A DNA stretch of 64,000 nucleotides from Halichondria panicea (Eukaryota > Porifera > Demospongiae > Suberitida > Halichondriidae): assembly GCF_963675165.1 (NCBI RefSeq), contig NC_087381.1, positions 2,480,001 to 2,544,000 on the forward strand, in the 5' to 3' direction. The notes beneath the pieces are model-generated. The model made no database searches. It was not told where the DNA came from and saw only the letters and a program-made list of their open reading frames with translations. The position numbers were made by a program, and so were the translations under genes. How positions within the stretch are numbered: position 1 is the first letter of the stretch; every line of letters starts with the position of its first letter. This document shows, piece by piece, positions 1-63,500 of this stretch.

Positions 1-127
1 CCTCACTCTATATGGTATACTTTTAGTTTCATTTGGAAATCATATAGATCTATAGCTATACTTGCGCCATGCCATAATATTATAGCTATAGTGGATACAG
101 TGAAATTGGACACATGGTAATTAAGCC
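1..127 (+). promoter_or_regulatory. Conserved 5' flank of a subfamily-A transporter copy
   Basis: Nearly the same sequence precedes the copies at 33562 and 56358 (33442-33561 and 50961-51061, the latter interrupted by the LTR element). It holds the block ACTTTTAGTTTCATTTG at about 19-35, which recurs upstream of most array copies, so it is a candidate promoter element. Function is inferred only from conservation and position. Confidence 0.4.
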
Positions 128-1668
128 ATGAAGTGCAAGTACAGAGTGAGATGGTTCTATTCCAAAGGAGCACTACTTGTTCTGTTCTGGTTACTGCTTA
201 TCACCTTTGTCATCACATCAATGCTCAAAGTTTTTCCGAGTCCTTCCACAACATTAACAAATGATTTATACACTTGGATGTATGGTGTTTTATTAATTCT
301 GTCGCTTTTGGTTGGGCCACTGGCAGGATGGCTGGCTGATGCTAAGTTTGGAAACTATAAAGTAGTAAGATTTGGTGTATGGCTTTATTTCTGGCTACTG
401 TTCATAATTGCTTCTATTACTTAATTGCAGACAACACTTTGGCCCTGAGATTATTATTGTTTGTGATATACATTTTGTTTATTGCAGGATGTGTTAGTTC
501 TTTTTTGGTATTGTTTCAACTGGGTACATGGATCAGTCGCCTGATGAGCTAGATGCTTCAAGCTCCAGCATTAGCAGTTATATCACTTGGTTTGCTTGTA
601 GTGGTATATTGGGAGCCTATTGTAGCAATTTCTTATCTACTTTGAAGTTGTTTTGCTTGCAGGATGTTTCATGGTACTCTAACTACCAACAGGTTTGGAG
701 CTTGCTTCTTGTTCTGTCTTTAAGCTGTGTTCTTATTTTGGATTTTTGTCTCTCCCGAAAATGGATAATAATTGAACCAAAGTCACCAAACTCTCTCAGA
801 ACCATCTAATATACCAAGTTCTCAAGTTTGCAGCCAAGCATAAAGCTCTCCTCAATCACAGTGCTCTCACATACTGGGAGGAAGACATTCCTTCAAGAAT
901 GGACCTGGGAAAGTCAAGATATGGTGGTCCATTCACTACAGAGAAAGTTGAAGATGTAAAGACTATGTTTCGTATTTTCCTGGTAGGCTTGTCATTAATG
1001 GTGATTGGCTTGTCTATTTCCTTGCATCCAGGCTATTTAATATGCCCAGGGGTCTGAACATATGTAATTCACATAATTATAGTGAGATCATTTTCATATA
1101 ATTTGAATTTATGTTTCATAGTTTGGACTTTATTGCACGAGTTTCTAATATTTCCGCTGCTTAGAGTCAGGTTTCAAAGTATTTTAAAGAGGATATAGGA
1201 ATTGCTTCATTTCTTTTTGTTGTCGTTAGTTTGATATGCCTGATTCTGAAGCTCATTAATTATCACTTTGAAGGAAGTTTGATAGCAATAGATTGGACTG
1301 TTCTTGTACTTTACGGATCAATGCAAGGATTGCTTTCTCAAACTTTTTTCACTTCAGCAGTTGAATTTATTGTTCTCAATCACCATACAGCATGAGAGGT
1401 CTGCTTACAGCATGTTTAGTTATTTTGTCTTCCATACTCAGTTCTGGTACAACTTTTTTATTGGAGAAATATACTTGTCAGGCAAGTTGGTGTTTTCCTG
1501 TGTCTTGGTGTGTAAAAGTAACTCTAAGCAGTATTGGACTAATCTTTTACTGTGTTGTGGCTCGTCAGTACAAGAGAATAGTGAGGGGAGATGGTTATTT
1601 TGCACAGACAATTGTGGAAGAAGTTTACGATCGTTATATCACTCCAAGAGACGTACAACTAGACTAGT
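128..1668 (+). pseudogene. SLC15/POT-like transporter, subfamily A, frameshifted pseudogene
   Basis: The copy starts with the family's N terminus ([17 protein letters not shown]) and keeps the POT motif [12 protein letters not shown], but loses a T in the tract near 380 and terminates at 424. Homology then continues in other frames: DASSSSISSYITW around 555-590, the cytoplasmic loop at 765-965 with an extra TA near 809, and the C-terminal [13 protein letters not shown] up to about 1668. At least four frame breaks preclude a full product. It is closest in sequence to the copies at 33562 and 56358, sharing the FPSPSTTLTN stretch. It lies upstream of the first visible exon of the oxidase gene, possibly in an earlier intron of it. 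Confidence 0.85.
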
Positions 1669-1800
1669 GACAGACTGTAACATGTATATACAGTACTTTG
1701 GTATTACAACTTTAGCAGTCATTAGTATTATCATAGTTAGTGCATGTATACTCTTTGCTGATCATGATTAGATTTGTGTATGTGCGCATGTTTTTAAGAG

Positions 1801-1848
1801 GTGTTCAGGGAGAAAATATCGCACTTGGACAGCTAGGTGCTTGCTGGT
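1801..1848 (+). pseudogene. Fossil copy of aldehyde oxidase exon 8
   Basis: This matches the resident exon at 7013-7070: both share GAGAAAATATCGCA and end in GCTTGCTGGTGAGT, including the splice donor. The copy has lost about 15 nt in the middle and gained an in-frame TAG. It stands downstream of a transporter copy exactly as the real exon 8 stands downstream of the nested transporter, so it is a duplication relic and not a usable exon. Confidence 0.75.
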
Positions 1849-1855
1849 GAGTATT

Positions 1856-2342
1856 ATTTTTTAGTCAGTATACTATGCTGTTATCTGTGAAACCAGCATG
1901 TATTCTGACTGTGTTGCTTTAATTTGTTAATTCGTGTGTACACTGATGAAGTTGTTATAACCGAGTTACTTCATCTCATTATAGTATAATTTCATGTGTA
2001 GTCTACCAGAGCTTCAAGATTATGCCTAGAGCTGTGGTATGCATAATGAATTAAGTATTATACATGTATATCTACCATACGGCCATGCATGTAGTAGTAC
2101 TGTAGCTTGTGTAGTACGTAGCCTCTAGTATTATTTAGTCGGTCAATATATATGCTGTGTGTACATTGTACAGAGCATAACTGCATTGGCTACGAGTTAT
2201 ATCCATAATGATAAAGCCATGGCTTTGTGTACAGGGCTCATTAAATTTCAAGATTGCATAATTATTAAGGGTATAAATTATATACTAGTCAGATTGAGAG
2301 CACTATAATAATTATCATACTATTATTTTCATCTCCCCAAAG
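1856..2342. other. Non-coding stretch before first visible oxidase exon
   Basis: The first part follows the intron sequence that lies downstream of exon 8 in the resident locus (the 'accagcatgtattctgactgtg' region). The rest is AT-rich sequence with a pyrimidine tract ending in the acceptor AG at 2341-2342. No gene is visible. Confidence 0.4.
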
Positions 2343-5300
2343 AACTCTCATGCTTACGTCAACGCCTCCTTCTGTGCCAAGGTGGGGGAGGGCTCAGTGA
2401 TAAAGGCCACGCCCACCATCATCTACAGCGGACTCACCAACAAACCAGTGTGTCTATATCTGTCTCATATGTCATAGTTATGCGATTACTAATACACATA
2501 CTCAACATTTTTCAGGTTTTAATGACGGCTCTCTGTGATTACTTGGTGGATAAAGATTTCTCTGATCCGGCCACCCTTAAAGGTGTGCTCTATTTCTTTA
2601 CATAAGTACAACTTCTCCCTTGTGGTTGAGTTCCTACAAATTTATAATGCTCTCTTTTAATCATTGATTGCTTTTAATTTGTTAACATGTCGTACCTAAC
2701 AGCAATTCTTGATCACTAATTTCCTTCCTTGTTTTCAGATGCTGTGGACATCCTGAGCAGTTTAGTCTTGCAGGACACACCTCTTTCTGCCTCGTCTGAG
2801 TACAGAATGAGCCTGGCAACAACACTGTTCTACAAGGTATAATATGTAATATTCATTTGGCGATAACATTTTTATGATGATATGTATATGCATGGTTACT
2901 CAGAGCGTTGACTCTTTAGTGTAAGTGTATATGTAGTACGTACTTTACATTCCCCTAGCTCAGAAAATTGTAACACACACACACACACATACATCTAGTT
3001 CATCGTTTGTATCCTCCCAAAGCCGCTCCCCCCTTCCCTCCAGTCAGTGGTTGTCCCACCCACCAGAGCTGTGTCAAGAGGCAAACAGCTGTTTTCTAGT
3101 ATACCCTCCGAATATCCGATAACACAACCGCTGACAAAACTGACCGCTAAGTTACAGGTTAGAAATAATATTATAATGTCACTTATTTAGTTGAGTCTAT
3201 GATATAATTAACATCTCGGTAAATGCATTGGAGATGTGATTTGTGCAGGCCGGCCAGCTGGGATATACAAATACATTATACAAACTGGGCAGAATAAGAA
3301 TTATAATTTTTGTCTAATACAATTATGTATGTGCCCTGCTTGATTAATCCTTAACCTAGTATCAGGAGCAAATGAGTAGATGAAGCTATGCATAGTATTG
3401 CGGAATCAGTATTGTAACTTGTTTGTAATGTGCTAAGTGCTCTGTACATAACGCGTTTGACTAAATAATTATAAGTACAATGAAATGTCAGCACTTAATT
3501 AGCGGTGTGACATAATTATAATTACGGCAATATTTGTACACCAGGACAATCAAATCCGCGTAGTAAGACACTCTATCTACTCATGTGCTCTTGATAGTAC
3601 ACACATGTTGTGTAGTGTGAAAGTTGCCAGCTGTGCACGCATGTCACCCCCTTATACAGGCGTCAGGTGAGGCCCAGTATATCAGTGACTGTCCTGTCCT
3701 ACCCAAAGAACTAGCCGCTGCTTTCGTCCTAACCACTATGGCACGTTAGCACATCCAGTGTATATCCTGTATTGATAACATCTTTTTTATACTTAGGGCA
3801 ATGCTGAGATAATATCAATTGACTGCTCCACTGCTAAGGTATGTCTATTATTTTTATGCCCTCTCGTTTGATGCAATTTCTATATCTGTACTATTCTAGA
3901 AACTGCCTGGCTTTGTCAAGATGCTCACATCAAAAGATATTCCCGGTGATAACAACTTCATGTCTGATCGAGATGCTGAGATCCCTGAAGAAGTAATTAA
4001 GTGATACAATAATTATTCATTTCGTATAATAATGCATGGGGAGGTTTATTAAGACACAACGAAGAATGAGGTTAGCACCTCCGTGTTTAAAGGTCCTTTG
4101 ACATGTACCATGTAAGCATATTAAGTAATTCCATCTACAGCACTTTTTAGGTAAGATAATCACACGAAGAAGTTATAATGTTGAACTTCCAATAATTGAT
4201 TGTTCAGAAGCAATTGATGAATTGATACTTTTGTGAATCAGTCAGAAATGCAGCCCGACTTTGCATACTTTTAGTTTAGATCATTTTTGAGAACCAACCA
4301 CCAAAGTACACATATAGCCGCTTGTGTCAATACCACAGATTGTATATATAGTTAATACGGCAAAGTTGAGCGTATGGTTTTAGCTAAGCCATGAAGTGCA
4401 AGTACAGAGTGAGATGGTTCTATTCTAAAGGAGCACTACTTGTTCTGTTCTGGTTTCTGCTTATCACCTTTGTCATCATATCAATGTTCAGAATTTTGCC
4501 TCCTCCAATAACACTTTCAGCAAGTTCTTATTGGGTGCCTGATGTTTTGTTACTTCTGTCAGTGTTGACGGTGCCACTAACAGGATGGCTGGCTGACGCA
4601 AAGTTTGGAAACTATAAAGTAGTAAGATTTGGTGTATTGCTTTTATTCCTTGCTACTGTTTTTAATTGCTTCTATTACTTAATTGAACCATTAAATTTTG
4701 TAGTTAACGTTTTGGTTCTGAAATGGTTTGTGTTTGTGATAAACGGTTTGTTTTTGGTAGGATGTGTTGGTTGCTCTTTAGTATTATTTCAACTGGGTAT
4801 GGATCAGATGCCTGATGCTTCAAGCTCCAGCATTTGCAGCTTTATCACTTGGTTTTCATGTAGTGGTGTATTGGGAGCCTATTTAAGCAATGTTTTATAT
4901 AATCTGAAGGTAGATTGCTTGGATGTTTCATTGCGTACCAACTACCAACAGGTTTGGAGCTTACTTCTTGTTCTATCTTTAAGCTGTGTTCTTATTTCGG
5001 ATTTTTGTCTCTCCAAAAATTGGCTAATAATTGAACCAAAGTCACCGAACTCTCTCAAAATTATCTACCAAGTTCTCAAGTTTGCAGCCAAGCACAAAGC
5101 TCCCCTCAATCGTAGTGCTCTCACATACTGGGAGGAAAATGTACCTTCAAGAATGGACCTCGGAAAGTCGAGATATGGTGGTCCATTCACTACAGAGCAA
5201 GTTGAAGATGTAAAAACTATGTTTCGTATTTTCTTTGTAGGTGTATCATTAATGGTGATTGGCTTGGCTATTTCTTTGCATCCAGACGTTGTATTGATGC

Positions 5301-8300
5301 CCAGTGGTCTGAACTTATGTAATTCGCAAATCGTGAGATTTGTTTCATATGATGAGACTTTATTTTTCATACTTTGGACTTTATTTCATGAGTTTCTAAT
5401 ATTTCCACTGCTTAGAGACAGGCTTCCAAGTATTCTAAAGAGAATAGGAATTGCTGCATTTCTTTTGTTTGCTGTGAGTTTGATATGCCTGATTCTGAAG
5501 CTCATTAATTATCACTTTGAAGGAAGTTTGATAGCAATTGATCAGACTGTTCCTATACTTTACAAATCAATGCAAGGATTGCTTTCTCAAACTTTTGTCA
5601 CTTCAACAGTTGAATTTCTTTGTTCCCAATCACCATACAGCATGAGAGGTCTGCTTACAGCATGTATAACTATCTTAGGTATCTTTTCCTCAATGCTTGG
5701 TTTTGGTACAAGGTTTTTTTTGGAGAAATACACTTGTGACACAAGCTTGTGTTTTCCTATTTCTTGGTGTGTGGAAGTAACTCTAAGCAGTATTGGACTA
5801 ATCTTTTACTGTGTTGTGGCTCGTCGGTACAAGAGAAGAGTGAGGGGAGATGGTTATTTTGCACAGACAATTGTGGAAGAAGTTTATGATCGTTATCTCA
5901 CTCCTAGAGACAACTAGTGACAGAATGTATATTATATATATAGCTATACGTATAGTACAGAATTGTATATAGAAGGTTTAGATGTTTAGATAATTAAATG
6001 TTGTATAGCCGGGAAATGTTTGTGAGGTGGCAAAATTTTGTTTTTTCGAGGGCAGAGCAGTGCCAAGATTAAAACTCCCACGCACCAGCATTCACATGCA
6101 AAGCTACTGGTGGGTGTGGATTCCTTGCAAATATTAAAACCCACCAACATTTCTGCTGAGGGCTCTGGAGCCAAATAGTGAAAATTTGCACCCATGAAAA
6201 TTTCCCGCTCTACAGTAGTTAATAATGATAAGATCTACATGGAAACTACAAGAAAAGTGCCTCAGAAGAGGTATATACAGTAGACTCTCGTTAATCCGGC
6301 CATCTTAATTTGTGGCAGTGCAGCTTGGCCAGAATAGCGAGGTGGCTGTATTTCTAATGACTAATTTTGCGGTTCTGTCTCGAGGATAACGAAGGATATG
6401 GATCATTCTACTCTCTAATCCAATTTTATCTGCCAAACCACACCCAAAACGTCTTACCTGGCTGTAACAAACGTATAAAATACCTAGTTTGGGGTAGCCA
6501 GTGCTGGCCAGTATATACGGAATAGCGAGTGGCCGCATTTTCAGGGCGAGTTTTGTGCAGTAAACATACATCTAGCTAGCAAACTGTGCCAAACCAAATT
6601 GCCGGTATATCGAGGTGGCCGTACTTCAGAGAGCCGGAATAGCGAGAGTCTACTGTACTATGAGACTTAGTATACCTACAACTTACTTATATTATAGTAT
6701 CCTATTAGCCAAGCCTCGAGGGAAAGGTTTGCGCATGCGCACAGTATGTAAATGAATAAAATCAGATGTTTTGTCGGTGTCCATGTGGTTTAGAAGCCCT
6801 CAGGCACTCGTAGTACCCTCGTTATGCTCAGGATATACTAAAGCAATACACCTTTGGGCTTCTAAATCCCATGCACAGACACCTCTAAAACATATTATGA
6901 TATTTTGGTTAGTATATATAATAATTATGCTAAGTTAAATAATCATGCTAAAATTGTACTTGACAGTCGTTTTACTGATTAAATTGTGCACTAATACGTA
7001 TACTTTTAACAGGTGTTTGCGGAGAAAATATCGCAATATGCTGGTCAACCTGTTGCTCTGGTACTTGCTGGTGAGTATATCTGTATGAAACTGGCATCAT
7101 GCACCTGTGTTGTCTTTGTTGCTTCTTACATGCACGTAAAATCTACAAACCTGCAAAGGACTATATACATGTACTTTTAGGATTGTGTGGTTCACTCTTG
7201 CCTTCTTAATATTGCATGTGTTATATACAATACATGCATGCATGCACGTGTCCATCAAAAATTATGAATAGTGAAGCGTGTTAATTTGTTATAGAAAGGC
7301 TGCCGTATACAAACGATATAATCATAGAGGTGATACAGTAACTATAATTATGTTCACACATTAACCATCCAGGCCGAGTAACACATGCAACCATGCACCC
7401 CCTTCTGTATATAGACACACAGGAGCATGCTGATAGGATTGCTTGTGCTGTGGAGGTCACTCACAAGACTCTGGGGCCACCCATACTCACTCTGGAGGAA
7501 GCCATTCAGAGACAGTCTTTCTTCTCCAGTCCTCGCAGAACCGAGCGGAAAGTGGGAGACACTGAAGGTGTTAAAAATGCAACAGTGTCGAGTATACCAG
7601 TGCCTATAATTTACCTCTATAAGTGTACTAATTATGGTAGTGCATATAATTATGTCTGTTTGTATTTGTTAAGCATTAAAAAATGACTCTCAGAGTTTCA
7701 AGCACTTGAATACATTCAAGAAGTTGCAATTTATCGCTTATTAAAATGACTTGTGTATATAGCTGCCATGTCTGGTGCTGATCACGTGATCACGGGCAAA
7801 GTGGAACTCGGCTCTCAATACCATTACCACATGGAGACACACACAGCCGTCGTTATTCCGGATGAGGGTGGGTTTAAAGTCCAATCTGCCACTCAATGGG
7901 TCGACAGAGTACAAGCCGCTGTTGCTATGGTGATGAACATCCCAGCAAGCTCTGTAGATGTATCAGTGAAGAGGATAGGAGGTGCTTACGGTGCCAAGAC
8001 CACCCGTCCCAATCTGGTAGCTGCAGCTTGTGCACTCGGTGCTTCAGTTACTGGGAGGTAAAATTGGCAAATCAATGCAGTCACTGTGGCTTTAATACTA
8101 AATGCTATAGCATTGAGAATGGCCCCAAAAGTTTTGTGATCAATTATGGCATGGGTGTTGTATAACTGGTTATTAAACGCCATGGATAGACTTATTAATA
8201 AATAAATTATAGCTGTTAGGAGATTATTACCTATATACAGCATGCATACAGAGAAGTGCTTTTTAACATGCAATCCAATGGTGACATTTTGAATTTGAAC

Positions 8301-11300
8301 AAAGACAACCAACGGCTACAACAAAGTGATGGTAACATTAAGAGGGCCATTCTTAGACTTAAAAATCTGACAAATGCTTATTTTCTTGTTTTAAATGAGA
8401 TTCTATATTAATATCCAGGCCTCATGCAGTTTAATTCGTTTGTTGAGCATTTTTAGCTGATCGTAATTATTTTCTCTTTACGGAATAAATCTTACACTAT
8501 TATATGTAACTGTCAACATGCACCGCTTGTACACAGGCCAGTGCGTATGTACATGGATCTTGAGACGAACATGAAGGCCATCGGGAAGAGATTCCCGTAC
8601 ATGGTTAGGTACAAACTAGGCAGCACTAAAGAAGGAGTCATCACGGCTATAGATGTTGAGATATTTGCTGACTGCGGTGTTGCCCCTAATGAGAATGCTA
8701 TATCTGTAGTGAGAGACTTCATTGACAATGGTACGCCGCGAGTTTGTCTCTAGTAGTATGTTTACAGTACACTGTTAAAAATGTGGTGCTATTGTAACAC
8801 CCAAAAGTGGGGTAAAACCATTGTACCAAATATGGCACTCATATATGGAGTTATTACAGCACCAGATTTTAGTGTTATTAAAACACTCATTTTGGAGTTG
8901 TAACAGCATGAAAATGTGCTGTACTTGCACTTTCTTGGAGTTACTGCAACTCCAAACTGTGTGTAACTTTTACAACTACACCTACAATGGTGTTATTAAA
9001 GCACTGGGGATGGGTGCTGCTGTTACTACAGGTACAGTTGTCATTGCTACTCTTCATGCAAAGCATAAAATATTGCATGCATGCTTATTGCACTTCTCGA
9101 TAAGCTCATGCACTTGACTTAAATGACGTAACATAATTATAGCATGTGTATAATGATATGCATCACGATAGCATACAATAAAAGTATGAAGATATGTATA
9201 CCTATAACCTCATAAAGTGTTTAATAACTACGACCACAATACACTTAGGCAGTTCGGGACCTTAAAAATAAAAAATAAAAGGATGCCATGCAGACATGCA
9301 CGTGGGTACTAAAATGTCAAAAACATAGTACAAGAGTTTCATAGAATGAATCTACTTCATACACTTCTTTCTCTACGATGACGAAGTAGTTCATTGATCC
9401 AGATTCAATAGCACTTTTTCTACCTTGAACGAACGTTGCATGTCATCCACCTGCATGTATATATTATGATGGGATAAGGATGGGGCTCACAAAAACAGTA
9501 GGCAGTGATATAAGTGAGTAGGAGACAATTATTCAAATAAGCCGAAAGCCTAACACTTTAACAACTGTTGTCACCTCTTCCAAATATCCAGTGTGCATGC
9601 ATTACTGTGTATAATTATATATGTATGATGACAGGGTTATTCTCGTTATAATAAGCATATACCCCCCCACACAGGATGAATTCAAGGGCAACAGAAGAAT
9701 CTGTTCTCAAGTATCAAGTATTTGTAACTGTTTATGCATTACATACGTGGAGCAGCAGCTTGACAAATATCATTTGTACTGCATCCTTCTTCTTACAGTA
9801 TTATCTTCAGAACTGAATAAAAAAAAATGTATGTTTGAAGATATGGGTTTCTATTTACCATTAGATTGTGACTGCACCAGTGACTGCATAGTCTTCGACC
9901 AGCTCCTGTAGCTTAACATTGTTCTCCTTTGTTCGAATTCTTTCCAATTTACCTCAAAAGTAAATCTATAGGTATCTTTTCCTGTAATTTCAAAAAATTC
10001 TATTACTACTGCAAACATTTACAGCTATATGCTTGAACACAATAATGATTAATAGTGAACTTACATAGACATAATCGGTCAGTGGTGGATAGAAGGTAAG
10101 TATATACGCACATCTGTAACTGCTGGTCGATCATATCACTCCTGATAGCACCTTTGTTACGCTTTGTTTTTGGACTATTCCTTTTAAAGAGCAGTGGTTT
10201 ATCTTTGGACAGATATTGAATCTCAATTTGCGACGCATATTCTTTAACCTCGTTTAAATAGCTCGACTCCATGAACCCTGCATGAAAAGAGTACCTATAG
10301 CTCTTACGATGCGATAATTTTGTAAGAAACAACCATTATCTTGTTGTCATTGGAAATTAATTTAACAATAATCGGAAGACAAAAATTATAATTATGATGA
10401 TTTGTATGCAAATGTAGATACGTGCGAAAAACCAGTCTGACAGGAAAGTGTTCCTAACGCTCAACATACATCTAACTGACGGACACGTACCCACAAAGCC
10501 CAACATATCAGACTGACAGACAAGTGCCCACAAAGCCCAACATATCAGACTGACGGACAGCTGCCCACAAAGCCCAACATATCAGACTGACGGACAGCTG
10601 CCCACAAAGCCCAGCATATCAGACGGACGGACAGCTGCCCACAAAGCCCAACATATCAGACTGACGGACAGCTGCCCACAAAGCCCAACAAGAATTATTA
10701 TATAGTTACAATTATAGTAGTGAGTAGTAGACTTGCAGTCTGTCTATGTCAAGCTTTTTAGCACAACAATGGTTTTGCAGCAACTTACTCTATAGTTCCG
10801 AGTCAAAGCAGTGTGCCATCTTGCAGTGTAGTACATCTAGCAACTTAGTCCATGTAGTACCAGAGCACAGTACAGAGCTAGAGTAGGCCTGGCGCCTTTG
10901 TACAGTTAAGGTGCACGCAGCTGTGTGCAGAGACTCTCATGCAGGCAGCTGTCTATCACAAGGTTCACGTGAGATCAGTGCTGCACGTCTACCACCCACG
11001 ATTTTGTTTTGTTTATGTAGTCTTGGCTACCCACCACGCATTTGAGTCTGTGCTCATCAATTAATTATGATCACATCATCAGTGTATGCCCTTGCATGGA
11101 AGAGGGGAGGGGTGGGAGCAAAGTAAGAGTTAAATTTGCAGGGCAACTGTACGAGTAGAAAGAACACACTATAAGCCAGCTACTTTGCTAAATACAGGAT
11201 GTATGATTTTTCAGACGATTGAATTGTTAATAATAATTATTGTTGGGCATTAATTTGTCCGTTAGCGTGACATGCACATAGTCTAGACCTCAATAGATGT

Positions 11301-14300
11301 TGCAACTTCAAACACATAGTTTTACAGTAACTAATAATGATAACTAGTACTGGTTCATCACATAAGTTATAAATACTGAATAGCTAAAATATTGCCGGTA
11401 CACTTGAAAAGTGCACTAATTTTTTCTTGGAAAGTTCCTCACAGGGCCAATTGTTCCGTCATCAGTACAAGTGTGCTGCTTCACCCCTGTATACATAATT
11501 ACGCATGTGATTAGAATTTATACTGAATAAGTATAATAAATAAGGTGACTATAATTATAATCTACTTGCATGCTTGAATATAAAGGTATAATAATTATAC
11601 CAGATTCAACTATTTTAATGGAACGGGTTTGTTACTATATAAGCAACTATTTATTTACACATGCAACTACACGAATCATTATAGACTGGCCTTGATTTGC
11701 ATGCAGGTGATTTGTAGAGGTGCTTACATTGCACCATGTATAGTGCTACAATCACACAATTCTTATTTGAGTAACACCATCTGGTGTATAGTTAGAGTAA
11801 TATGATTTTAACAACTAGGTAAGTGCATGCACAACACTGTTTAAAGTGTTCCACAAGCACTTATAAGTGTATAATAGCACCCTTTATTGTTCTAGTAACA
11901 CGTAGCAGTTACGACTGCACTCTTAGTGTTGTGATAGCACCATTAGGTGAGTGTTGGCATAGCACTTTGGGTGCTATTGTAACTACCCATTTTTAACAGT
12001 GTATATATACATATGAATGTACGTGCTCTTTGTTATAATTATTGTTGTGGTATATATGGACTGCTAGTATACATAATTATGTGTTGTATACCTTGTTGCT
12101 TACATTGTATCCCAATTAAAAGGTATCTCACTCCTTAGCGTACTACGTTCCCAATTGGAAGATTGCTACACAGCCATGCAAAACAAACACACCCGCCAAC
12201 GTCTTCTGCAGGTCACCAGGTAATAATGCATGCATGTGTACTCAACTGCATGTGAGGTATACTGCGTGTGAGGTATACATGCAATGAAATTTAAGTTACA
12301 GTACATATACATCAAACATTCTTTAATGGCATATTGCATAATAATTATAATAGTATTACTATTATAGTGCACAGTGTGCAAAATAATTACAGGTGGCCAC
12401 TGGCCAATTTTCGTGCACTGATGCAATTAACAAATTGCCAGCAAATGATCAGCCAGTGCATCCGATCAATCGTTTTGGGTGTGTGCTTCCTCGCACGCGC
12501 AGAACAGTTTGCACAAACGTGTTAAAAATTGCTAGATCGTGAGATTATTATACTTAACAGTTCAAGAGATGTATCAAGACGAGTATTTATAGTGTTATGT
12601 AATTGTTACATTCTCTTTAGGTACTCTACCGAGTATCTTTATGATGGAGACCATGATAGACCACCTCGCCACCTCATTGGGCATGGACGTCGAGGTTGTC
12701 AAGGTAGCCAATCTATACAAGAATGGTCACATGACTCTTGTCGGGAAGGAGCTGACTAACTGTAACATGTCGAGAATCTGGGAACGTGAGTTTTAATGTA
12801 TTTACGACTGTACGTAGAATAAGTTTATGTGAATTGGTATCAGTGAAACAATATTCTCTTGACATGTTATAGTGCGAACACATCTTTCAATTTATTCAGA
12901 GCTGTACCAATCTGCTGAAGTTGACAGAAGAAAGAAAGAGATTTCTGAATACAACAAGGTGCTTGACAGCTAGCTTGTTGTGTTAACTTTTTGTTGTAAA
13001 ACATCATTTACATGCACGATGATGTCATAATTGTTTCACATATACACTGTACAGACGAGTCGGTGGTACAAGCGTGGACTGAACATGATGCCACTGAAGT
13101 ACACTATCAACTGGGCGGAGGCCACACCCTATTACGTGACAGTCAACATTTACGCTGAGGATGGCACAGTGGCCATAGCTCACGGTGGTGTGGAGATGGG
13201 CCAGGGGATAAACACCAAGGCAATTAAGACCTTGTGTGCAGTATAGTATATAGACACTAACATGTATACAACTGCAAAAAGTTTGTATTACATGTGCACA
13301 TAAAGGCTTGATTTTATCATTTCTCCGGCGACATAATTATTGATTGTGTAGTCAACTGTTTGAGCCAAGTACTAGATAACTCAGCCGTACAATTACAGCA
13401 TATCAATTGGAATACGTCTATTGGATAATTTACCTGCATGCTCCCTCCTCTGATAGGTAGCCCAGGTGGCATCAAAGGTGTTGGGTGTTCCCTTGGAGAA
13501 GATACGCATCAAGCCTACGGACTCCATGCTCAATCCCAATGGCATATGGAGTGGAGCCAGCACCACCAGTGAACTGAACTGTCTGGTGAGCCAAACATAA
13601 AAATCATACTGTTGAGCCTTCAAAAATTGACCTCTGAGACTTAGCCAATCACTTACGTTCACACTGGCTCTTATATTCACTTTTGTGGCATGTGCAGGGG
13701 ACCATAAATGCTTGCAAAGAGCTGAATAGTCGCATTGACAGTATCAGAGAGCAGATTCCCGGACTGGAATGGGAGGACCTTATACAGATGGCCAGCAGTG
13801 CTGGGGTCAACCTATCAGCAAGGGCATTGTCAGTAATGTCTGTATAATTATCATGCATGCCCACATAATTATATGTACAATGCATGCATGTAGCTATAGT
13901 AGGCTCTAAGTATAATATAAGAGATTGAGTGTGTTGGCAAGAATGGCGCTAACGAGTTAATTCCAGTCTAACGTTTGCACTCAAGTATTGTCTCCTGATA
14001 AGTATGATAGAAAAAAGTATTACTGTATAATTATAAAGTACCTGACTGAGCTTTTAATAGCGTGATCACGAAATACTTAATCTAATCGTGTCTTTATACC
14101 TGCAGTGTGTCTGAATCTTGTGACGGCAAGTTCAATTACGTTTGCTGGGGTAGTACAGTAACGGAGGTGGGCGTGGACGTGCTGACGGGGGAGACGAGGG
14201 TGGAGAGGGTGGACATCCTCTATGACTGTGGGGACAGGTAGGGGAATAGGAGGAGCTTATATTCACATTTATTTATGGATGAATGTATTGAGATGAGTAT

Positions 14301-15730
14301 AATATATGGAACTTGTATAATATCTTCATGTACTTATGCAATGTATACATGTACATTCAAGCAAGTATAGTCACCAAATGCACACTACTTTCTCCGTCAT
14401 TAACTTTATAGGCACAATGCATGTGTCATGGTACAATGTTGTATCTATATACTCCCGGGGATCATGTATTTATTGGTCATCTCATTTATGCATATACAGC
14501 CTGAACCCAGAGATAGACATTGGTCAAGTGGAGGGTGCGTTTGTGATGGGTCTGGGCTACTGGCTCTCTGAGAAGATTGTCTACAATAAGGAGACAGGAC
14601 AACTGCTAACTCACAACACTTGGGTAAGTCTATATATACAGCTTAGCTGCTACTAATAATAATTATAGTACACGCGGCAACTAACGTTTTGTGTCCTACA
14701 TTTACAAGAGTACTTTGACACTGTCGAACACATCCTACGCATAATTAACAGAGATTGATATTTTAGCGAAAGTCATTCGGCATAATTATAAGTTAATCAG
14801 GCATTACGAGCTTTTAATTGTAATTATTTTCTGAATAAGGTTTGACATGATTATGGTGTGTGCATGCATGACTGTGCTGTTTTTCACTTTTCACTTTGCA
14901 ATATTTACAGGAGTACAAGCCCCCCTCTCACAAAGACATCCCCATTGATTTTAGAGTTGAACTGCTCAAGGATGCAACTAATCCATTCGGAGTGCTCGGA
15001 TCCAAAGGTATAAGTTACAGTCACGTATACTGTCTATTGTGGTTGGGGTCTAAATTATGCTTCGGATCCATATATAGACTATCCTCAAATATAAAGTTGC
15101 CTATTATAAACAGAGCCAATGCAGTACTTTAATGTGTACACTACATGACTGTGTTGTTCCTCTAGCTAATGTTCGTAATAATTATATCGTGAGACAGGCT
15201 GCATACGTAGTTCCTTTGCTTAAATGGTCTGTCTATCTATATAGCTATATAATATACTTGTACTTGGTACATGCACACACACACAGCTGCTGGCGAGCCT
15301 CCTCAGTGTATGAGCTGCTCCGCACTGTTTGCAGTCAAGAGAGCTATTGAGAGTGCTCGAGCAGACGCTGGAATCAGCACACATTTCACACTAGGTGTGA
15401 TATAGTATACTGCATGGACATATAATAGGCACTTTATGCAGGGGAGGGAGGTGTATGCAAATGTTAGTTGGTTATAATTATTGTTAAGATCCACTCTGCA
15501 TGTGATTGCTATATGATTAGACCTCTCTTGACTATAGTCTTAGCCACATTTTCATGTAACTTATACACATGCAGTATCGTATCCCCCTTAATCTGTCTAC
15601 CATGTATTACAATAGTGCATTGATATCTGATTTATCTGACCATCTGTTATTTTCAGATGGACCTGCCACAGTGGAGAATATTCAACAAGCTTGTTTAACA
15701 TCAACAGAACAGTTGAGTATAATAAACTGA
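2343..15730 (+). CDS. Aldehyde oxidase/xanthine dehydrogenase-like molybdenum hydroxylase, 22 exons, 5' end outside window
   Basis: Exons inferred from homology, phase and splice sites: 2343-2447, 2516-2582, 2739-2836, 2999-3157, 3660-3740, 3797-3838, 3900-3992, 7013-7070, 7415-7567, 7763-8057, 8537-8730, 12139-12219, 12621-12785, 12900-12958, 13055-13219, 13457-13585, 13698-13828, 14106-14237, 14500-14623, 14911-15007, 15287-15394, 15657-15730. The joined frame is open for 869 codons and ends in TGA. The first three or four exons are the end of the FAD domain ([23 protein letters not shown]); the rest is the molybdopterin domain, with [13 protein letters not shown] and the catalytic-loop AAGEPPQCM containing the conserved Glu. 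Family members oxidise aldehydes or N-heterocycles using Moco, 2Fe-2S and FAD. By eye, positions known to define xanthine specificity are changed (AKTTRP for GKETR, FCRSPG for FRGFG), so an aldehyde-oxidase-like substrate is more likely. Exons 5 and 15 appear to use GC donors. The 2Fe-2S N terminus (~460 residues) should lie to the left. Confidence 0.9.
3993..4390 (+). promoter_or_regulatory. Intron segment upstream of the nested transporter (unit 5' region)
   Basis: This intronic stretch contains blocks repeated upstream of array copies: GGTTTATTAAGACACA near 4042, a GTTAGCACCTCCGTGTTTAAAGG-like block near 4070, TCAGAAATGCAGCCC near 4241 and ACTTTTAGTTT near 4266. These recurring blocks probably carry the transporter's promoter. 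No TATA box is confidently assigned. Confidence 0.4.
4391..5917 (+). CDS. SLC15/POT-like multipass transporter (subfamily A), intact, nested in an oxidase intron
   Basis: This single-exon ORF encodes 508 residues with about 12 hydrophobic segments. POT/PTR (SLC15, NRT1) signatures are visible: [12 protein letters not shown] at 65-76, [11 protein letters not shown] at 135-145 followed by [16 protein letters not shown], a charged loop at about 213-278 containing [13 protein letters not shown] (like the loop of SLC15A3/A4), and [13 protein letters not shown] at 408-420 matching the family's E-x-x-Y/C-S-Q-x-P-x-S-M-R. Such proteins move di/tripeptides, histidine or nitrate with protons across plasma or lysosomal membranes. 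The helix-1 ExxER proton-coupling motif is not present, so substrate and mechanism are uncertain. The gene lies in the same orientation inside the intron between visible exons 7 and 8 of the molybdenum hydroxylase. The start ATG is shared by all subfamily-A copies. It is the probable template type for the array further right. Confidence 0.85.
   Translation: MKCKYRVRWFYSKGALLVLFWFLLITFVIISMFRILPPPITLSASSYWVPDVLLLLSVLTVPLTGWLADAKFGNYKVVRFGVLLLFLATVFNCFYYLIEPLNFVVNVLVLKWFVFVINGLFLVGCVGCSLVLFQLGMDQMPDASSSSICSFITWFSCSGVLGAYLSNVLYNLKVDCLDVSLRTNYQQVWSLLLVLSLSCVLISDFCLSKNWLIIEPKSPNSLKIIYQVLKFAAKHKAPLNRSALTYWEENVPSRMDLGKSRYGGPFTTEQVEDVKTMFRIFFVGVSLMVIGLAISLHPDVVLMPSGLNLCNSQIVRFVSYDETLFFILWTLFHEFLIFPLLRDRLPSILKRIGIAAFLLFAVSLICLILKLINYHFEGSLIAIDQTVPILYKSMQGLLSQTFVTSTVEFLCSQSPYSMRGLLTACITILGIFSSMLGFGTRFFLEKYTCDTSLCFPISWCVEVTLSSIGLIFYCVVARRYKRRVRGDGYFAQTIVEEVYDRYLTPRDN
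6001..6218. mobile_element. MITE, 'tatagcggg' TIR family 1
   Basis: Ends are GTATAGCCGGGAAATG and CATGAAAATTTCCCGCTCTAC, imperfect inverted repeats. The interior matches, in reverse orientation, the element at 60262-60512 (shared blocks around ccctcg-aaaa, ccaccaaca, ctctggagcc). Non-autonomous and without coding capacity. It sits in the oxidase intron, just after the nested transporter. Confidence 0.65.
6278..6655. mobile_element. 378-bp TIR element (cagtagactctcg), TA target
   Basis: Ends CAGTAGACTCTCGTTAATCC and the reverse complement of CAGTAGACTCTCGCTATTCC form ~25-bp TIRs with three mismatches, flanked by TA on both sides. It is a MITE of Tc1/mariner type by target site. A truncated inverted copy lies at 37150-37258. 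Antisense ORFs inside it have no recognisable product. Confidence 0.75.
6764..6894. repeat. Imperfect inverted repeat ~130 bp
   Basis: Left arm ATGTTTTGTCGGTGTCCATG...TTTAGAAGCCC pairs with a right arm reading GGGCTTCTAAATCCC...CACCTCTAAAACAT. It could be a small foldback element. It has no target duplication that I can see. Confidence 0.5.
9357..10332 (-). other. Coding-like minus-strand fragments, unrecognised
   Basis: On the minus strand an ORF runs from 10332 (starting [20 protein letters not shown]) to about 10055, where a donor-like GTAAGT occurs. A second open piece lies at about 9984-9880 after an acceptor-like TTACAG; two of its frames are open, one reading [20 protein letters not shown] and one reading [13 protein letters not shown]. 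Another open piece ([20 protein letters not shown]) lies near 9440-9350. They could be exons of a gene carried by the surrounding element. I recognise no family and cannot join them with a confirmed phase. Confidence 0.25.
10461..10690. repeat. 37-bp minisatellite, about six units
   Basis: Tandem units of the form CCAACATATCAGACTGACGG + ACAGCTGCCCACAAAGC follow each other without spacers. The four central units differ at only a few positions; the first unit is more divergent. It lies upstream of the minus-strand coding-like fragments, within the TIR element. Confidence 0.9.
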
Positions 15731-44889: not shown

Positions 44890-45045
44890 GGGACAATGCC
44901 GAGGTAATATTAATTAGCTCCACGGCCTAAAGTAGGTGTATATTTCTGATATGACATCTCTTCTCTGTTTGAAAAAAAGATGTGTTCCTGGAGAGAATAA
45001 CTTCATGTGTCTGACTAGGATACTGTATCCCTAAAAAATAAGTAA
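44890..45045 (+). pseudogene. Fossil copies of aldehyde oxidase exons 6 and 7
   Basis: GGGACAATGCCGAGGTAATA then TTAATTAGCTCCACGGCCTA (exon 6) and AGATGTGTTCCTGGAGAGAA then TAACTTCATGTGTCTGACTA (exon 7) line up with 3797-3838 and 3900-3992 in order and spacing. Both frames are broken. Followed at 45060-45260 by a unit 5' region lacking a transporter ORF. Confidence 0.75.
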
Positions 45046-45263
45046 GGATTAATTATTCATTTTTATGTGATTAGGGCACATCAAAAAACCAGAGAAAGTT
45101 TCCATATATGGAAAGACCAATCAAATTTTATGTTGAAAAGGGTTGATTTTGTTATTAAGAAGCACCTGGTGAATCCCTTGTTATTCATAAATGCAGCTGT
45201 TAGTCTGAATCATAATACTTTTAGTTTCATGTCAACCCACATACATGTAGTTGTGGTGAATGG

Positions 45264-47691: not shown

Positions 47692-47827
47692 CTAGAGACA
47701 GACTGTAACATGTATAATTATATGGTATTACAACTTTAGCAGTCATTACTATATTATCATAGCTAGTGCATGTATATACTCACTTGTTGCTTTACTTTAT
47801 ATTTGTGTATGTACATGTTTTTAAGAG

Positions 47828-47876
47828 GTGTTCGAGGAGAAAATATCCCACTTGAACAGATAGGTGCTTGCTGGTG
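47828..47876 (+). pseudogene. Fossil copy of aldehyde oxidase exon 8
   Basis: GTGTTCGAGGAGAAAATATC then GGTGCTTGCTGGTGAGTAG, the same shortened form as at 1801 and 42094, ~135 bp after the transporter stop. Confidence 0.7.
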
Positions 47877-49274: not shown

Positions 49275-49795
49275 TAATTATCTAAAAGGAGCCCTACTTG
49301 TTCTGTTCTGGTTTCTGCTTATTATCTTTGTCATCGTATCAATGATGAGTGTCTTGCTAATTGCTTTTATAGTTTAATTGCACCGTTTGTAGATAGTGCT
49401 TTGGTTCTGAAATCGTTAATTTTGTGTTTGTGATCTAAAAAAAAAATTAAATTAAATTAGTATTGTTTCAACTGGGTGTGGATCAGATGCCTGATGCTTC
49501 AAGCTTCAGCATTAGCAGCTTTATCACTTGGTTTGTATGTTGTGGTATATCGGGAACCTATGCGGTGTTTTATATACTCTAAAGGCTTATACTGTTTGAA
49601 TGACTCTTTGGTACATGCACTGTTTGGATGTTTCATTGTATTCCAACTACCAACAGGTTTGGAGCTTGCTTCTTGTTAAGCTGTGCTCTTATTTCGGATT
49701 TTTGCCTCTCTACTAATAATTGAACAAAAGTCACCAAACTCTCTCAAACCAAACTCCATCTACCATGTTCTCAAGTTTGCAGCCAAGCACAACAT
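49275..49795 (+). pseudogene. SLC15/POT-like transporter, subfamily A, fragment
   Basis: Pieces match subfamily A in order: AAAGGAGCCCTACTTGTTCT (N terminus), CAACTGGGTGTGGATCAGAT (LGVDQMPDAS), TTCCAACTACCAACAGGTTT, and AAGTTTGCAGCCAAGCACAA (loop), with large internal deletions and shifts. Homology ends at about 49795. Highly decayed. Confidence 0.8.
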
Positions 49796-50464
49796 GTGTT
49801 ATTATAATTATACCGTATGACTGGAAAGTTTGGTGGGTGTTTTAATTTGGCCATTACATCCTCATATTTAATGCAGTTCTCGATCTTTAAACTGGCCCAG
49901 TTATAATTATACTGCATGTATACACTGTATCCAGCTATAACTGTATCCAGCTATTATAACGTCCATGTTTTTCGCATAATCGTGATAGTTCTTTTGTTGT
50001 CAAACTGTCTGTATAATTATAGGACGTCATAGCTTACATATATAATTAGTAACTGCATCGAAACCATGCATATACTGTCTAGTAAATTTACCACAGGAAC
50101 CATGTCACTATAAAAGCAATGATTTGAAGTATTGAAGTATTGGGTGGAGGGTGGGCTCCGGTCAAAAAGGTCACTTTACCCCAGTGCAACATGCCATATT
50201 ATACGTACTGCTCTTCCTTTGATCTCAGAGGTCAAAAGGCAACACAGTATACACATTCACAAGATGAAAAATAACTGAGTCAAATTCATTTTTCTGCAGT
50301 TGTGCTCTAATTATAGCATCAAACAGTCAGTTAGTAAATACTCTTTCAACAGCTGCTGATGATGGCTGCATGCATGTACTGTACTAGCAACACAATACAA
50401 TTTGCCACTAGTGAGAAAATTGCTAGAATGCTCACATTTAAGGATGTTCTGGATCTTCATGCGT
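49796..50464. other. Non-coding spacer, no feature seen
   Basis: AT-rich sequence with a GTATCCAGCTATAACT short tandem repeat near 49929-49955. No ORF, TIR pair or array homology recognised. Confidence 0.35.
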
Positions 50465-51061
50465 ATAATCATGTGCTGAGATCCATGAAGTAGTGATAAT
50501 ACTGAGTGCATGGGAAAGGTTTATGGTTAGCATACATATTGAACCACATCAAAGAAAGAGAAAGATAACACCACCACCTTTGTGTTGAAAAAGGTTCTTT
50601 GGGAAACTTCCCAGTATACTAAGTGAATTTGATGTAGCTATTATAATAATAGCACTTTTCAAATTGGGGAAATTTCGCTTGTGAATCAATTGATTTTCAA
50701 TGCATAATTATATGCATGCAGGCTAATGAATTTTAATGAGGCTCATCATTCAATATATACCATTAGCAAGAAATATATAAAATTTGTTCCGTTTTATCGA
50801 GGTTTGATAATCAATAATACACACAACACAACACTCGTTTTTACACCGTCAATAAGAAAGTTAGACCTTATGTTGAAAGCCTTTCCAAAGCCTTTTGGAA
50901 ACCTTCAAATGCAGATACAGCACTAGGTGAATACATGTGTGAATCATTGGAATTGCTGCCTCACTCTATATGGCATACTTTTAGTTTCATTTGGAAATCA
51001 TATAAATCTATAGCTATATACTTGTGCCATGCCATAATATATAGCTATAGTGGATACAGTG
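50465..51061 (+). repeat. Recent segmental duplication of transporter unit 5' region
   Basis: Nearly identical to 32960-33545 apart from small indels (for example CTTTCCAAAGCCTTTTGGAA in both). It includes a trace of exon 7 (GTGCTGAGATCCATGAAGTA), recurring unit blocks and the ACTTTTAGTTTCATTTG block near 50986. The LTR element inserted at its right edge; the continuation resumes at 56324. Confidence 0.8.
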
Positions 51062-56357: not shown

Positions 56358-56841
56358 ATGAAGTGCAAGTACAGAGTGAGATGGTTCTATTCCAAAGGAG
56401 CACTACTTGTTCTGTTCTGGATTCTAATTATCACCTTTGTCATCACATCAATGTTCACAGTTTTTCCGAGTCCTTCCACAACATTAACAAACAATTTATA
56501 CACTTGGGTATATGGTGTTTTATTAATTCTGTCGCTTTTGGTTGGGCCACTGGCAGGATGGCTGGCTGATGCTAAGTTTGGAAACTATAAAGTAGTAAGA
56601 TTTGGTGTATGGCTTTTATTTCTGGCTACTGTTCTTAATTGCTTCTATTACTTAATTGCAGACAACACTTTGGTCCTGATATTATTTTTGTTTGTGATAT
56701 ATACTTTATTGCAGGATGTGTTAGTTCCTTTTTGGTATTGTTTCAACTGGGTATGGATCAGTTGCCTGATGCTTCAAGCTCCAGCATTAGCAGTTATATC
56801 ACTTGGTTTGCTTGTAGTGGTATATTGGGAGCATATTTTTG
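56358..56841 (+). pseudogene. SLC15/POT-like transporter, subfamily A, 3'-truncated
   Basis: Begins [17 protein letters not shown] with [16 protein letters not shown] and runs open past LIADNTLVLILFLF; a small deletion near 56705 shifts the frame before [18 protein letters not shown]. Transporter homology ends at about 56838 (GVLGAYF equivalent) and is replaced by unrelated sequence, so two-thirds of the protein is missing. Its promoter region has been split from it by the LTR element. Confidence 0.88.
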
Positions 56842-58371: not shown

Positions 58372-58407
58372 ATGTCTGATCGATGCTGAAATCCCTTGAA
58401 AAATATG
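58372..58407 (+). pseudogene. Short fossil of oxidase exon 7
   Basis: TGTCTGATCGATGCTGAAAT then CCCTTGAAAAAT corresponds to GTCTGATCGAGATGCTGAGA-TCCCTGAAGAA of the resident exon 7. A MITE begins immediately after it. Confidence 0.5.
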
Positions 58408-60943: not shown

Positions 60944-62483
60944 ATGAAGTGCAAGTACAAGAGTGAAGTGGATCTATTCCAAAGGAGCACTACCGTTCTG
61001 GTTTCTTCTTATCATCTCATAAATCATCAATAATGATTGTTTTGCCTTCCATAAAATATTCAGCAAGTTCTTATTGGTTGTATGCTGTTTCGTTACTTCT
61101 GTTAATGTTATAGCTGCACCACTGGCAGGATGGCTGGCTGACGCAAAGTTTGGAAACTATACAGTAGTAAGATTTGGTGTATGGCTTTTATTCCTTGCTA
61201 CTGTTTTTAATTGCTTCTATCACTTAATTGCACCGTTTGTAGGTAACGCTTTGGTTCTGAGATCGTTTGTGTTTGTGATATACGTTTTGTATTTGGTAGG
61301 AGGTGTTGGTTGCTCTTTAGTATTGTTTTAACTGGGCATAGATCAAATTCCTGATGCTTCAAGCTCCAGCATTAGCAGTTATATCACTTGGTTTCATTGT
61401 AGTGGTGTATAGGGAGCATATTTTAGTTGTTAGTATTGAAAGTAGACTGTTTGGATGTTTCATCGCATTCCAACTATAATTATACCAACAGGTTTGGAGT
61501 TTGCTTCTTGTTCTGTCTTTAAGCTGTGTTCTTATTTCGGATTTTTGTCTCTCTCAAAAGTGGCTAATAATTGAACCAAAGTCACCAAACTCTCTCAAAA
61601 CCATCTACCAAGTTCTCAAGTTTGCAGCCAAACACAAAGCTCCCCTCAATCGCAGTGCTCTCACATACTTTGAGGAAGACATTCCTTAATTCAAGAATGG
61701 ACCTGAGAAAGTCGAGATATGGTGGGTGGTCCATTCACTACAGAGCAGGTTGAAGACGTGAAGACCGTGTTTCGTATTCTCTTACTTTATAATTATGCCA
61801 TCAGTGATGATTGTTTTCTCTTTTTCTTGTATCCAAGGATTGATATAATTATTGATGCCCAGTGATCTGAACTTATGTAGTAAAAATAGTGAACATATTT
61901 TCATATAACGAAGTTGGAATTTCATACTTTGGACTTTATTTGCATGAGTTTCTGATATTTCTGCTGCTTAGAGATAGGCTTCCAAGTATTCTAAAGAAGA
62001 TAGGAATTGCTTCATTTCTTTCTGCTTTTGTAAGTTTGATATGCTTGATTCTGAAGCTCATTAATTATTATCACTTTGAAGGAGGTTTGATAGCAATTGA
62101 TTGGACTGTTTCTGTACTTTACAAATCAATGCAAGGATTGATTGCTCAAAGTGTTGCCACTTCTGCAATTGCGTTTATTTGTTCCCAATCACCATACAGT
62201 ATGAGGGGTTCTTACAGCATATATGGCCATTTTTGCTCCCCTGCATGGCTGTCGTTTTTGGTTTTGGTACACAAGTGTTTTATTGGAGAAATACACTTGT
62301 GAGGCAAGTTGGTGTTTTCCTATTTCCTGGTGTGTAAAAGTAACTCTAAGCAGTATTGGACTAATCTTTTACTGTGTCATGGCTCGTTGGTACAAGAGAA
62401 GAGTGAGGGGAGATGGTTATTTTGCACAGACAGACAATTGTGGAAGAAGTTTACGATCGTTATCTCACTCCAAGAGATAGTTA
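60944..62483 (+). pseudogene. SLC15/POT-like transporter, subfamily A, multiply frameshifted pseudogene
   Basis: The start ATG at 60944 gives MKCKYK before an inserted base. Later frames show [20 protein letters not shown] (61131-61190), a stop near 61330, [15 protein letters not shown], the conserved loop with an insertion of AAT at 61687 and GGT at 61723, [30 protein letters not shown], and the C terminus [13 protein letters not shown] with a 4-bp duplication (CAGA) near 62428. Too many breaks for function. Nearest relatives are the copies at 38229 and 40423. Confidence 0.88.
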
Positions 62484-62797
62484 GTAACCAACTAATCGAC
62501 TATGTCAGTTTAGTGAATGTAGTCACGTGACTCCCGTGGTTAATAATTATGTTTAACATCGCTATGTAATAGTACGTGCTATAGTCATCTTAGAAAGTTT
62601 GTCCAGATCATGTACATTTATATTAGCAGGTGTTTACCAAGATATAAACAATCTGACTACAATTATTTGGCCGTGGATTGTCTCATTAATGTTTTGTGCA
62701 TGTCTCGTACGTATACGTGATTATAGTGTAGTGTGTTTTAACTTCACGGTCTATAATTTGTACTCAGTTACCATTGATTTATGAAATGCTGTGAGCA

Positions 62798-62972
62798 GTG
62801 GAACCTCTGTTAACAACTACCTCCGAATAAAGGCCAGCTGCTATATAACGGCCAGGCACCCAGGTCCCAGTTTGTGTACAAAACAACCTCTCAACAAAGG
62901 CCACCTCTGTATAAAGGCCAAAACATTGTTCCCCAAAGGTGTCCGTTATAGAGGGATTCCTCTGTAATTCCA
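62798..62972. mobile_element. Small TIR element remnant (cagtggaacctctgttaac)
   Basis: CAGTGGAACCTCTGTTAACA faces CCGTTATAGAGGGATTCCTC at the other end, an imperfect inverted repeat. The interior repeats ATAAAGGCCA blocks. It resembles short non-autonomous Tc1/pogo-type elements. Confidence 0.6.
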
Positions 62973-62976
62973 ATAA

Positions 62977-63135
62977 TAATTTTTTATTGACTGCTCCATA
63001 GCTTATAATTATGCATGCTCTCTGATTTAGAATACTGAAATGTTCTATAAAAATTAATTGCCTGGCTGCATGTGCTCACATCAAACATGCAGACAAAAGC
63101 TAACTTGGATGCTGAGATCCTTTGCATGGGAAAAT
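62977..63135 (+). pseudogene. Fossil copies of aldehyde oxidase exons 6 and 7
   Basis: TTTATTGACTGCTCCATAGC (62983-63002) recalls the end of exon 6, and ATTGCCTGGCTGCATGTGCT then CACATCAAACATGCAGACAA and TTGGATGCTGAGATCC recall exon 7 at 3900-3992. The order and spacing match the resident gene. Confidence 0.6.
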
Positions 63136-63500
63136 CTCTAATACGTGATGATGCAACAATATCTTTGGTGAAATATCGCTGGTGAATCAATGGATGCAAT
63201 AATATATATACTGCATTGCATGCATCAAAGAAAGAGCACTGAGTCTTTATTGTTGTAAGCATTAGTCAACTTTCGAATTGACGATTCAGAAGCCCTTGAT
63301 GAATACATTTGTGAATCATCAATCATCGGCAATGCAGCCCTTAAAGTACTTCGCATACTTTTAGTTTCATTTGAATAATTGTGTCAATATAGCCAAAAAG
63401 TGCAGCATGCATGTACAAAGTGAAGATAACAGCAAAAAACTACTCAAAAATTTGCATATGTTCATGACATTGTAGATCGTTTGTGTTTGTGATATACTGA
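63136..63500 (+). pseudogene. Last array unit: 5' region and a scrap of transporter sequence
   Basis: CATACTTTTAGTTTCATTTG at 63354-63373 and AATGCAGCCC near 63334 mark a unit 5' region. Then only AAAGTGCAGCATGCATGTAC AAAGTGA (N-terminal remnant) and AGATCGTTTGTGTTTGTGAT (63475, transmembrane segment remnant) survive. Confidence 0.6.

Follow-up and report, generated by a model that had tools for sequence, protein, structure and literature searches.

Relics of XDH exons accompany a tandem family of SLC15A4-like transporter genes in the sponge Halichondria panicea

Introduction

Does a tandem family of transporter genes in the sponge Halichondria panicea descend from a gene nested in another gene's intron and, if so, how was it copied out of its host? 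The question is raised by a stretch of 64,000 nucleotides (the window; C5:2480001-2544000, in a genome of 131 Mb), where an intact SLC15A4-like transporter gene sits in an intron of a xanthine dehydrogenase/oxidase-like (XDH) gene and further transporter copies are accompanied by decayed pieces of the host exons. Positions are window coordinates, with negative values and values above 64000 lying beyond it. A first-pass annotation of this DNA had proposed that the family expanded by copying an intron segment together with flanking host exons. For the founding of the family this proposal holds, as the relics bear introns and come from XDH exons 5-8 only; for the later expansion it is incomplete. 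The reading that we favour, and consider very probable, is that an XDH segment containing the transporter was copied as DNA, that its exons decayed, and that the resulting units multiplied partly by unequal exchange.

Results

An intact transporter gene is nested in two copies of the host

The host was identified by tblastn with sponge and other-animal XDH proteins, and the NCBI Halichondria panicea XDH-like protein is 98% identical to the XDH of the window. Exons 6, 7 and 8 are real XDH exons, as first annotated, and a 508-codon transporter frame lies wholly within the intron between exons 7 and 8, on the same strand as the host and with host exons on both sides. The locus had been taken for the resident one; it is itself a truncated tandem copy, and a complete XDH gene with N-terminal exons was found by tblastn ~31 kb to the left (C5:2448373-2461724, window -31627 to -18276). 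This full gene holds the same transporter in the same intron, and the two nested frames are 99.7% identical. The features of the host locus in the window are:

1996..1996, no strand: left edge of the XDH block that was duplicated (identity to C5:2451229 onward begins here)
2338..15727, plus strand: truncated XDH-like duplicate without N-terminal exons (tblastn with sponge and animal XDH; NCBI model P0121, 832 aa)
3660..3740, plus strand: XDH exon 5 (tblastn; bounds read from the sequence)
3797..3838, plus strand: XDH exon 6 (tblastn; sequence)
3900..3992, plus strand: XDH exon 7 (tblastn; sequence)
4391..5917, plus strand: nested intact single-exon SLC15A4-like transporter, 508 aa (open reading frame; SLC15A4 structures; upstream copy)
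5990..6900, no strand: repeat-rich part of the host intron, right of the transporter and left of exon 8 (repeat matches)
7013..7070, plus strand: XDH exon 8 (tblastn; sequence)

The array relics come from XDH exons 5-8

Twelve non-nested full-length copies of the transporter were considered, 11 in one cluster and one at C5:2721133, ~237 kb right of the window's nested gene. To locate host-derived DNA, a 244 kb region around the window was scanned on the plus strand with the whole XDH locus, the transporter frame and intron repeats being masked. Array relics arose only from host 3655-4389 and 6940-7255, extending beyond the window to ~+98 kb, while the rest matched further introns of the upstream XDH copy or a repeat beyond its end. 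We also compared 26 XDH exon segments (those mapped by tblastn, a set from which small exons may be absent) with the cluster and with control DNA, on both strands at a cut-off of E 0.05. Exons 5, 6, 7 and 8 matched the cluster, with best E values of 6e-21, 1e-6, 6e-21 and 3e-6, respectively, and none of the other 22 segments reached the cut-off there. In the control DNA one unrelated exon segment, N5, reached E 0.03.

The relics adjoin the transporter copies. Exon 8 was found within 600 bp downstream of eight of the 12 non-nested copies (score reached by 0 or 1 of 200 shuffles) and was marginal at copy 38229 (12/200), while exon 6/7 lay within 1.5 kb upstream of seven (0/100 shuffles). The left intron scored above shuffles at all 12 copies (0/60), exceeding the best of 300 random windows at nine of them and falling below it at three. 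Relics beside unlinked transporters would have told against an origin at this locus; for 10 distant family members, a selection from the 74 listed, neither exon 8, exon 6/7 nor the left intron rose above the random-window maximum in the flanks. The left intron alone is no proof of XDH origin, since this DNA could belong to the transporter itself as its upstream region, but the exons are. Genome-wide, a query from exon 6 to the left intron and a relic-spacer query matched only this cluster, with limited sensitivity, and an exon 8 query matched only the two XDH copies; since the latter missed known relics, its silence elsewhere is weak, and the relic-spacer query is the more telling of the two, although its hits too were limited in number. 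The distant copy at C5:2721133 carries an exon 6-to-exon 7 relic (E 6e-9). A further host match beside it was considered as a later XDH exon and rejected, because it corresponds to window ~16300-16440, past the 3' end of the gene, a dispersed repeat found in six further places.

Thirteen relics had been listed in the first-pass annotation, and each position (+/-60 bp) was compared with 500 dinucleotide shuffles of the exon. Ten beat all shuffles (36148, 44890, 32965, 50470, 58372, 1801, 32187, 35245, 42094 and 47828), so that this comparison did not overturn the proposal. The exon 6+7 relic at 62977 was less secure (8/500 shuffles reach its score), and a left-intron relic at 63276-63367 (E 2e-7) is the better match there. 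The exon 8 relic at 39829 was likewise matched by 14/500 shuffles, although its wider context, 39762-40088, aligns with host 6940-7255. An exon 7 trace at 40105 (71/500) is better read as intron 8 running to 40088 and left intron starting at 40131, no exon 7 being detectable there. The array features within the window are:

128..1652, plus strand: transporter copy, broken frame (similarity)
1785..1854, plus strand: exon 8 relic (alignment; shuffle test)
30337..30510, plus strand: left host intron relic (77% over 189 columns, E 3e-30)
30521..32038, plus strand: transporter copy, intact frame (similarity)
32171..32209, plus strand: exon 8 relic (similarity; shuffle test)
32941..32990, plus strand: exon 7 relic (similarity; shuffle test)
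33562..35079, plus strand: transporter copy, broken frame (similarity)
35232..35322, plus strand: exon 8 relic without the deletion common to seven other copies (alignment; shuffle test)
36132..36388, plus strand: best relic, spanning exon 6, the intron behind it, exon 7 and the first part of the following intron (73% over 276 columns, E 9e-36)
38229..39764, plus strand: transporter copy, intact frame (open reading frame)
39762..40088, plus strand: exon 8 (weak) and intron 8 relic (61% over 348 columns, E 5e-10)
40131..40421, plus strand: left host intron relic (alignment)
40423..41942, plus strand: transporter copy, frame broken near its start (similarity)
42058..42180, plus strand: exon 8 relic (similarity; shuffle test)
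44894..45062, plus strand: exon 6 and exon 7 relics (similarity; shuffle test)
46189..47691, plus strand: transporter copy, intact frame (similarity)
47819..47880, plus strand: exon 8 relic (similarity; shuffle test)
49285..49792, plus strand: transporter fragments (similarity)
50428..50497, plus strand: exon 7 relic (similarity; shuffle test)
56358..56838, plus strand: transporter fragment (similarity)
58372..58403, plus strand: short exon 7 relic (0/500 shuffles reach its score)
60944..62477, plus strand: transporter copy, broken frame, exon 8 relic not found (similarity)
62977..63135, plus strand: earlier-claimed exon 6+7 relic, insecure (shuffle test)

Introns and a direct junction point to copying of a DNA segment

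Host introns as well as exons accompany the copies (relics of the left intron, intron 6 and intron 8), and alignment of the relic at 36132-36388 shows that splice-site dinucleotides are retained. Introns and splice-site dinucleotides kept in relics indicate copying as DNA rather than retroposition. Homology continues past exon 8 into intron 8, to ~host 7255. In the shortest spacer (38229 to 40423), the end of one frame is followed by exon 8 and intron 8 to host 7255, then by the left intron from host 4091 and the next frame, with a head-to-tail junction of intron 8 to left intron between 40088 and 40131. Exon 8 lies 137-170 bp from the transporter frame in eight copies and 1.1 kb from it in the host, a distance that would be explained by repeats entering the host intron. 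Within the stretch 5990-6900, positions 6276-6659 match many contigs and 6003-6229 and 6664-6892 match other places in the 244 kb region; the stretch probably consists of later insertions.

The same flanking DNA might have been left by duplications of the whole XDH gene or of a large block, which carried the transporter along and lost all exons except 5-8 in every copy afterwards. Duplication of a block with truncated XDH, at a period of ~31 kb, did occur here, and LRRTM4 is a case of host loss after co-duplication (PMC3933685). However, exon segments 9, 10 and 11 (150, 297 and 195 bp) exceed exons 6-8 in length and would be expected to remain at least as visible, 0/22 of the other segments left relics at the cut-off, and the junction at 40088-40131 leads straight from intron 8 into the left intron. 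We therefore regard such loss from larger duplications as unlikely.

One deletion in exon 8, read from the alignment, is common to seven copies and absent in copy 33562. These seven therefore descend from an already decayed unit. The relics might alternatively be retained for a regulatory role or as untranslated sequence of the transporter genes, the host segment supplying a promoter or 3' end; preservation is indeed best in the initial 23 bp of exon 8 and in blocks of the left intron. The shared deletion speaks against such a role, and a promoter belonging to the transporter itself may account for the left-intron blocks; we consider retention of this kind improbable.

Units have exchanged sequence within the transporter frame

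Copy 94910-96430 is a clear recombinant, with a 33562-type 5' part and a 40423-type 3' part that switch inside the frame at ~nt 900-1300. Its identity to copy 33562 is 96-98% for the 5' flank, 93-99% for windows of the frame to nt 900 and 42-78% from nt 1501, while its identity to copy 40423 is 94-100% from nt 1301 through the 3' flank. The array thus contains a recombinant unit of the kind formed by unequal crossing over. The first-pass annotation was right about the origin of the expansion, but the shared deletion and this mosaic unit show that it did not proceed copy by copy from the intron. As a separate observation, identity between the subfamily copies and the nested gene switches abruptly from stretch to stretch of the frame, in broken copies too (62-76% at nt 101-200 versus 94-99% at nt 1401-1500).

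Open frames are found in the two nested and seven non-nested copies. Pairwise ratios of nonsynonymous to synonymous divergence (dN/dS) are 0.5-0.9, mostly ~0.6, and suggest weak purifying selection; pairwise dS is 0.04-0.28 except in the nested pair, which is nearly identical.

Several observations weigh against the favoured reading. Matching distance matrices, as proof of co-duplication, worked on one side only: left-flank and frame distances agreed (r 0.73 and 0.76; reached by 0/5000 permutations), whereas right-flank distances failed to follow the frame, both with the nested copy (r 0.22; 1007/5000 permutations) and without it (r -0.04; 1856/5000). The comparison of trees suggested in the first-pass annotation thus fails on the right side. 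Simple whole-unit co-inheritance does not fit this pattern, and exchange within frames would produce the difference between flanks. The nested gene clusters with copy 30521 in the tree (support 96), branching within the family and not at its base. Divergence of the flanks from the host, 0.37-0.74 per site with some inflation by alignment error, exceeds that at synonymous sites of the frames (0.15-0.28). The two give conflicting dates, unless the flanks are poorly aligned or the frames underwent conversion; such conversion, involving nested and array copies, may be the reason. Exon 8 was not found at copies 60944 and 90541 or at the distant copy, and exon 6/7 was not found within 1.5 kb of five of the 12 copies. 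Finally, the exon order of the host, described at first as the same throughout, is mostly kept, with exceptions beyond the window: at -6735 and 89518 a relic of exon 5 is found on the right side of one of exon 7, and pieces of exon 5 are inverted at 80333-80280 and 92341-92286.

The host locus is itself tandemly duplicated

Window 1996-8769 is 99.87% identical to -28771 to -22000, and 12001-24391 has a mean identity of 95.6% to -22002 to -9495. In 400-bp windows the two XDH copies are 99-100% identical to ~16000 and then 92-99% to ~24000. Viewed as a whole, ~10 kb of 99-100% identity (window 1996-15600) is followed by 8 kb differing by ~5%; this identity is observed directly, and its cause would be that the XDH part was recently homogenised, converted or recopied. 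An insertion of 3.2 kb (~8770-12001) in an XDH intron is present in the window copy only. It bears terminal inverted repeats (ACACTGTTAAAAATG) and is apparently a recent DNA transposon.

An assembly error, with haplotypes left unmerged, could also give a duplicated host locus, and the near-identity of the XDH copies over ~10 kb is what it would predict. Yet the left flanks differ, identity is ~95% in the following 8 kb, the 3.2 kb insertion occurs in one copy, and the array relics would be left wholly unexplained; we consider this quite unlikely. That the relics are chance or low-complexity matches is effectively refuted, for although single relics are short, three of the 13 listed fail to beat all shuffles and segment N5 matched control DNA, E values go to ~1e-36, the relics adjoin transporter copies and derive from four contiguous exons only, and random windows and distant-family flanks score weaker.

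Discussion

We propose that a single-exon SLC15A4-like transporter came to lie in an XDH intron, on the same strand as its host, and that a stretch running from exon 5 into the first part of intron 8 was then duplicated as DNA together with the transporter, because intron-bearing relics are confined to the contiguous exons 5-8. Exit of the founding copy from the host gene would be the first step. One or a few units may have escaped with their host exons and then multiplied; exons freed from the host frame would have decayed while seven non-nested transporter frames stayed open. Later amplification was probably in part by unequal exchange between frames, to judge from the one recombinant, with the stretch from exon 8 through the spacer to exon 6/7 carried along as intergenic spacer. 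Later still, a block of ~31 kb period (truncated host, kinase genes and array units) underwent tandem duplication, and its XDH part would recently have been homogenised or recopied. Going further, nesting in the intron may have both seeded and shaped the family, by providing a promoter-bearing unit, a frame that served as crossover substrate, exons that remained as a fossil tag and a nested copy still converting with the array; this we put forward tentatively, as a doubtful extension.

The first-pass annotation knew of no described family formed in this way. This was too strong, since the human F8A/int22h system and the LRRTM/alpha-catenin genes come close, but no described case of host-exon fossils in a tandem array was found among openly licensed papers, outside which one may exist. 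Each known system, as far as the portions of the sources at hand go, shares a part, and none has a tandem family whose members bear a series of host-exon fossils. To our knowledge, the int22h repeats carry no host coding exons. The ELOA3 cluster is located in a KATNAL2 intron.

In human factor VIII intron 22, F8A1-3, a single-exon nested gene, belongs to a ~10 kb repeat (int22h-1 to -3) that is also found twice outside the host, with known recombination between the copies (PMC7725122). The likeness to the sponge lies in a nested single-exon gene in a repeat also found outside the host, and in the host intronic DNA around the copies; the difference is that int22h has three near-identical copies ~0.5 Mb apart (PMC7725122), whereas the sponge has 12 non-nested full-length copies, 11 in one cluster, and fossils of four host exons. 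Nor are the array units long near-identical duplicons of the int22h kind, as their relic flanks are 60-89% identical to the host and the truncated host block alone reaches 99-100%. LRRTM genes are nested in alpha-catenin genes, and the published account holds that nested gene and host were presumably duplicated together, LRRTM4 being an un-nested copy after later loss of its host; it invokes whole-genome duplications, unlike the small local DNA copies with flanking exons only in the sponge (PMC3933685). ELOA3, in the human KATNAL2 region, is an intronless retrogene in a tandem array of 12 near-identical repeats, with a KATNAL2 intron mapped to the ELOA3 genes; unlike the sponge units, its repeat unit comprises transposable elements and the coding exon and no host exons in the sections available (PMC10664989). 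In Drosophila, the ng genes and Sgs4 lie inside dunce, several small genes in one intron, and gene copy number is unstable near short repeats of this kind; the available text describes no host-exon relics such as those of the sponge array (PMC10835880).

Exon fossils form an independent, polarised mark of origin, from which the birthplace, unit boundaries and exchanges of a young family can be read. The sponge case also shows that a gene nested in an intron can leave its host and give rise to a cluster through local copying of DNA, with no retroposition involved. Looking for decayed host exons next to tandem genes could serve as a test for other expanded families, including the sponge's other SLC15A4-like clusters.

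The wider transporter family and other features of the window

The nested protein is similar to SLC15A4 structures (phmmer, E 7e-9 over residues 119-365), and its relative P0089 is named solute carrier family 15 member 4-like by NCBI. Pfam gave no family at E 0.001 for 4388-5914, and for 38214-39761 only MFS_1, under the family cut-off. A whole-genome protein search gave at least 85 matches to the wide family, of which 11 belong to this subfamily (72-100% identical) and the remaining 74 listed are 42-49% identical. The latter occur in several clusters, on C5 (0.98-1.15 Mb), C6, C14 and C15, mostly as long open frames without introns, and the SLC15A4-like family appears from these sequences to be a very large sponge expansion; no relevant title on SLC15A4 expansion in sponges was found among openly licensed papers. 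Proteins P0008, P0010 and P0012 are close subfamily relatives whose best matches within the 244 kb region reach only 77-79% identity; they may represent further copies, other haplotypes or a sister species. Short matches of ~90% at 22776, 27809, 29746 and 43473 were rejected as subfamily fragments, because each of them falls within, or resembles, a distant member (27218-28699) or one of its truncated copies; the segment behind them is conserved across the transporter family.

Right of the XDH exons, two genes with TRAF-type zinc fingers and a protein kinase domain stand head-to-head, at 17173-19068 (minus strand) and 19193-21220 (plus strand), and this stretch also occurs in the duplicated block to the left. 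An open frame of 1540 codons at 51424-56046 (plus strand) belongs to a Ty3/gypsy-like retrotransposon. It has SCAN and zinc-knuckle domains, and its integrase precedes the reverse transcriptase, an order that we take to be that of Gmr1-like elements.

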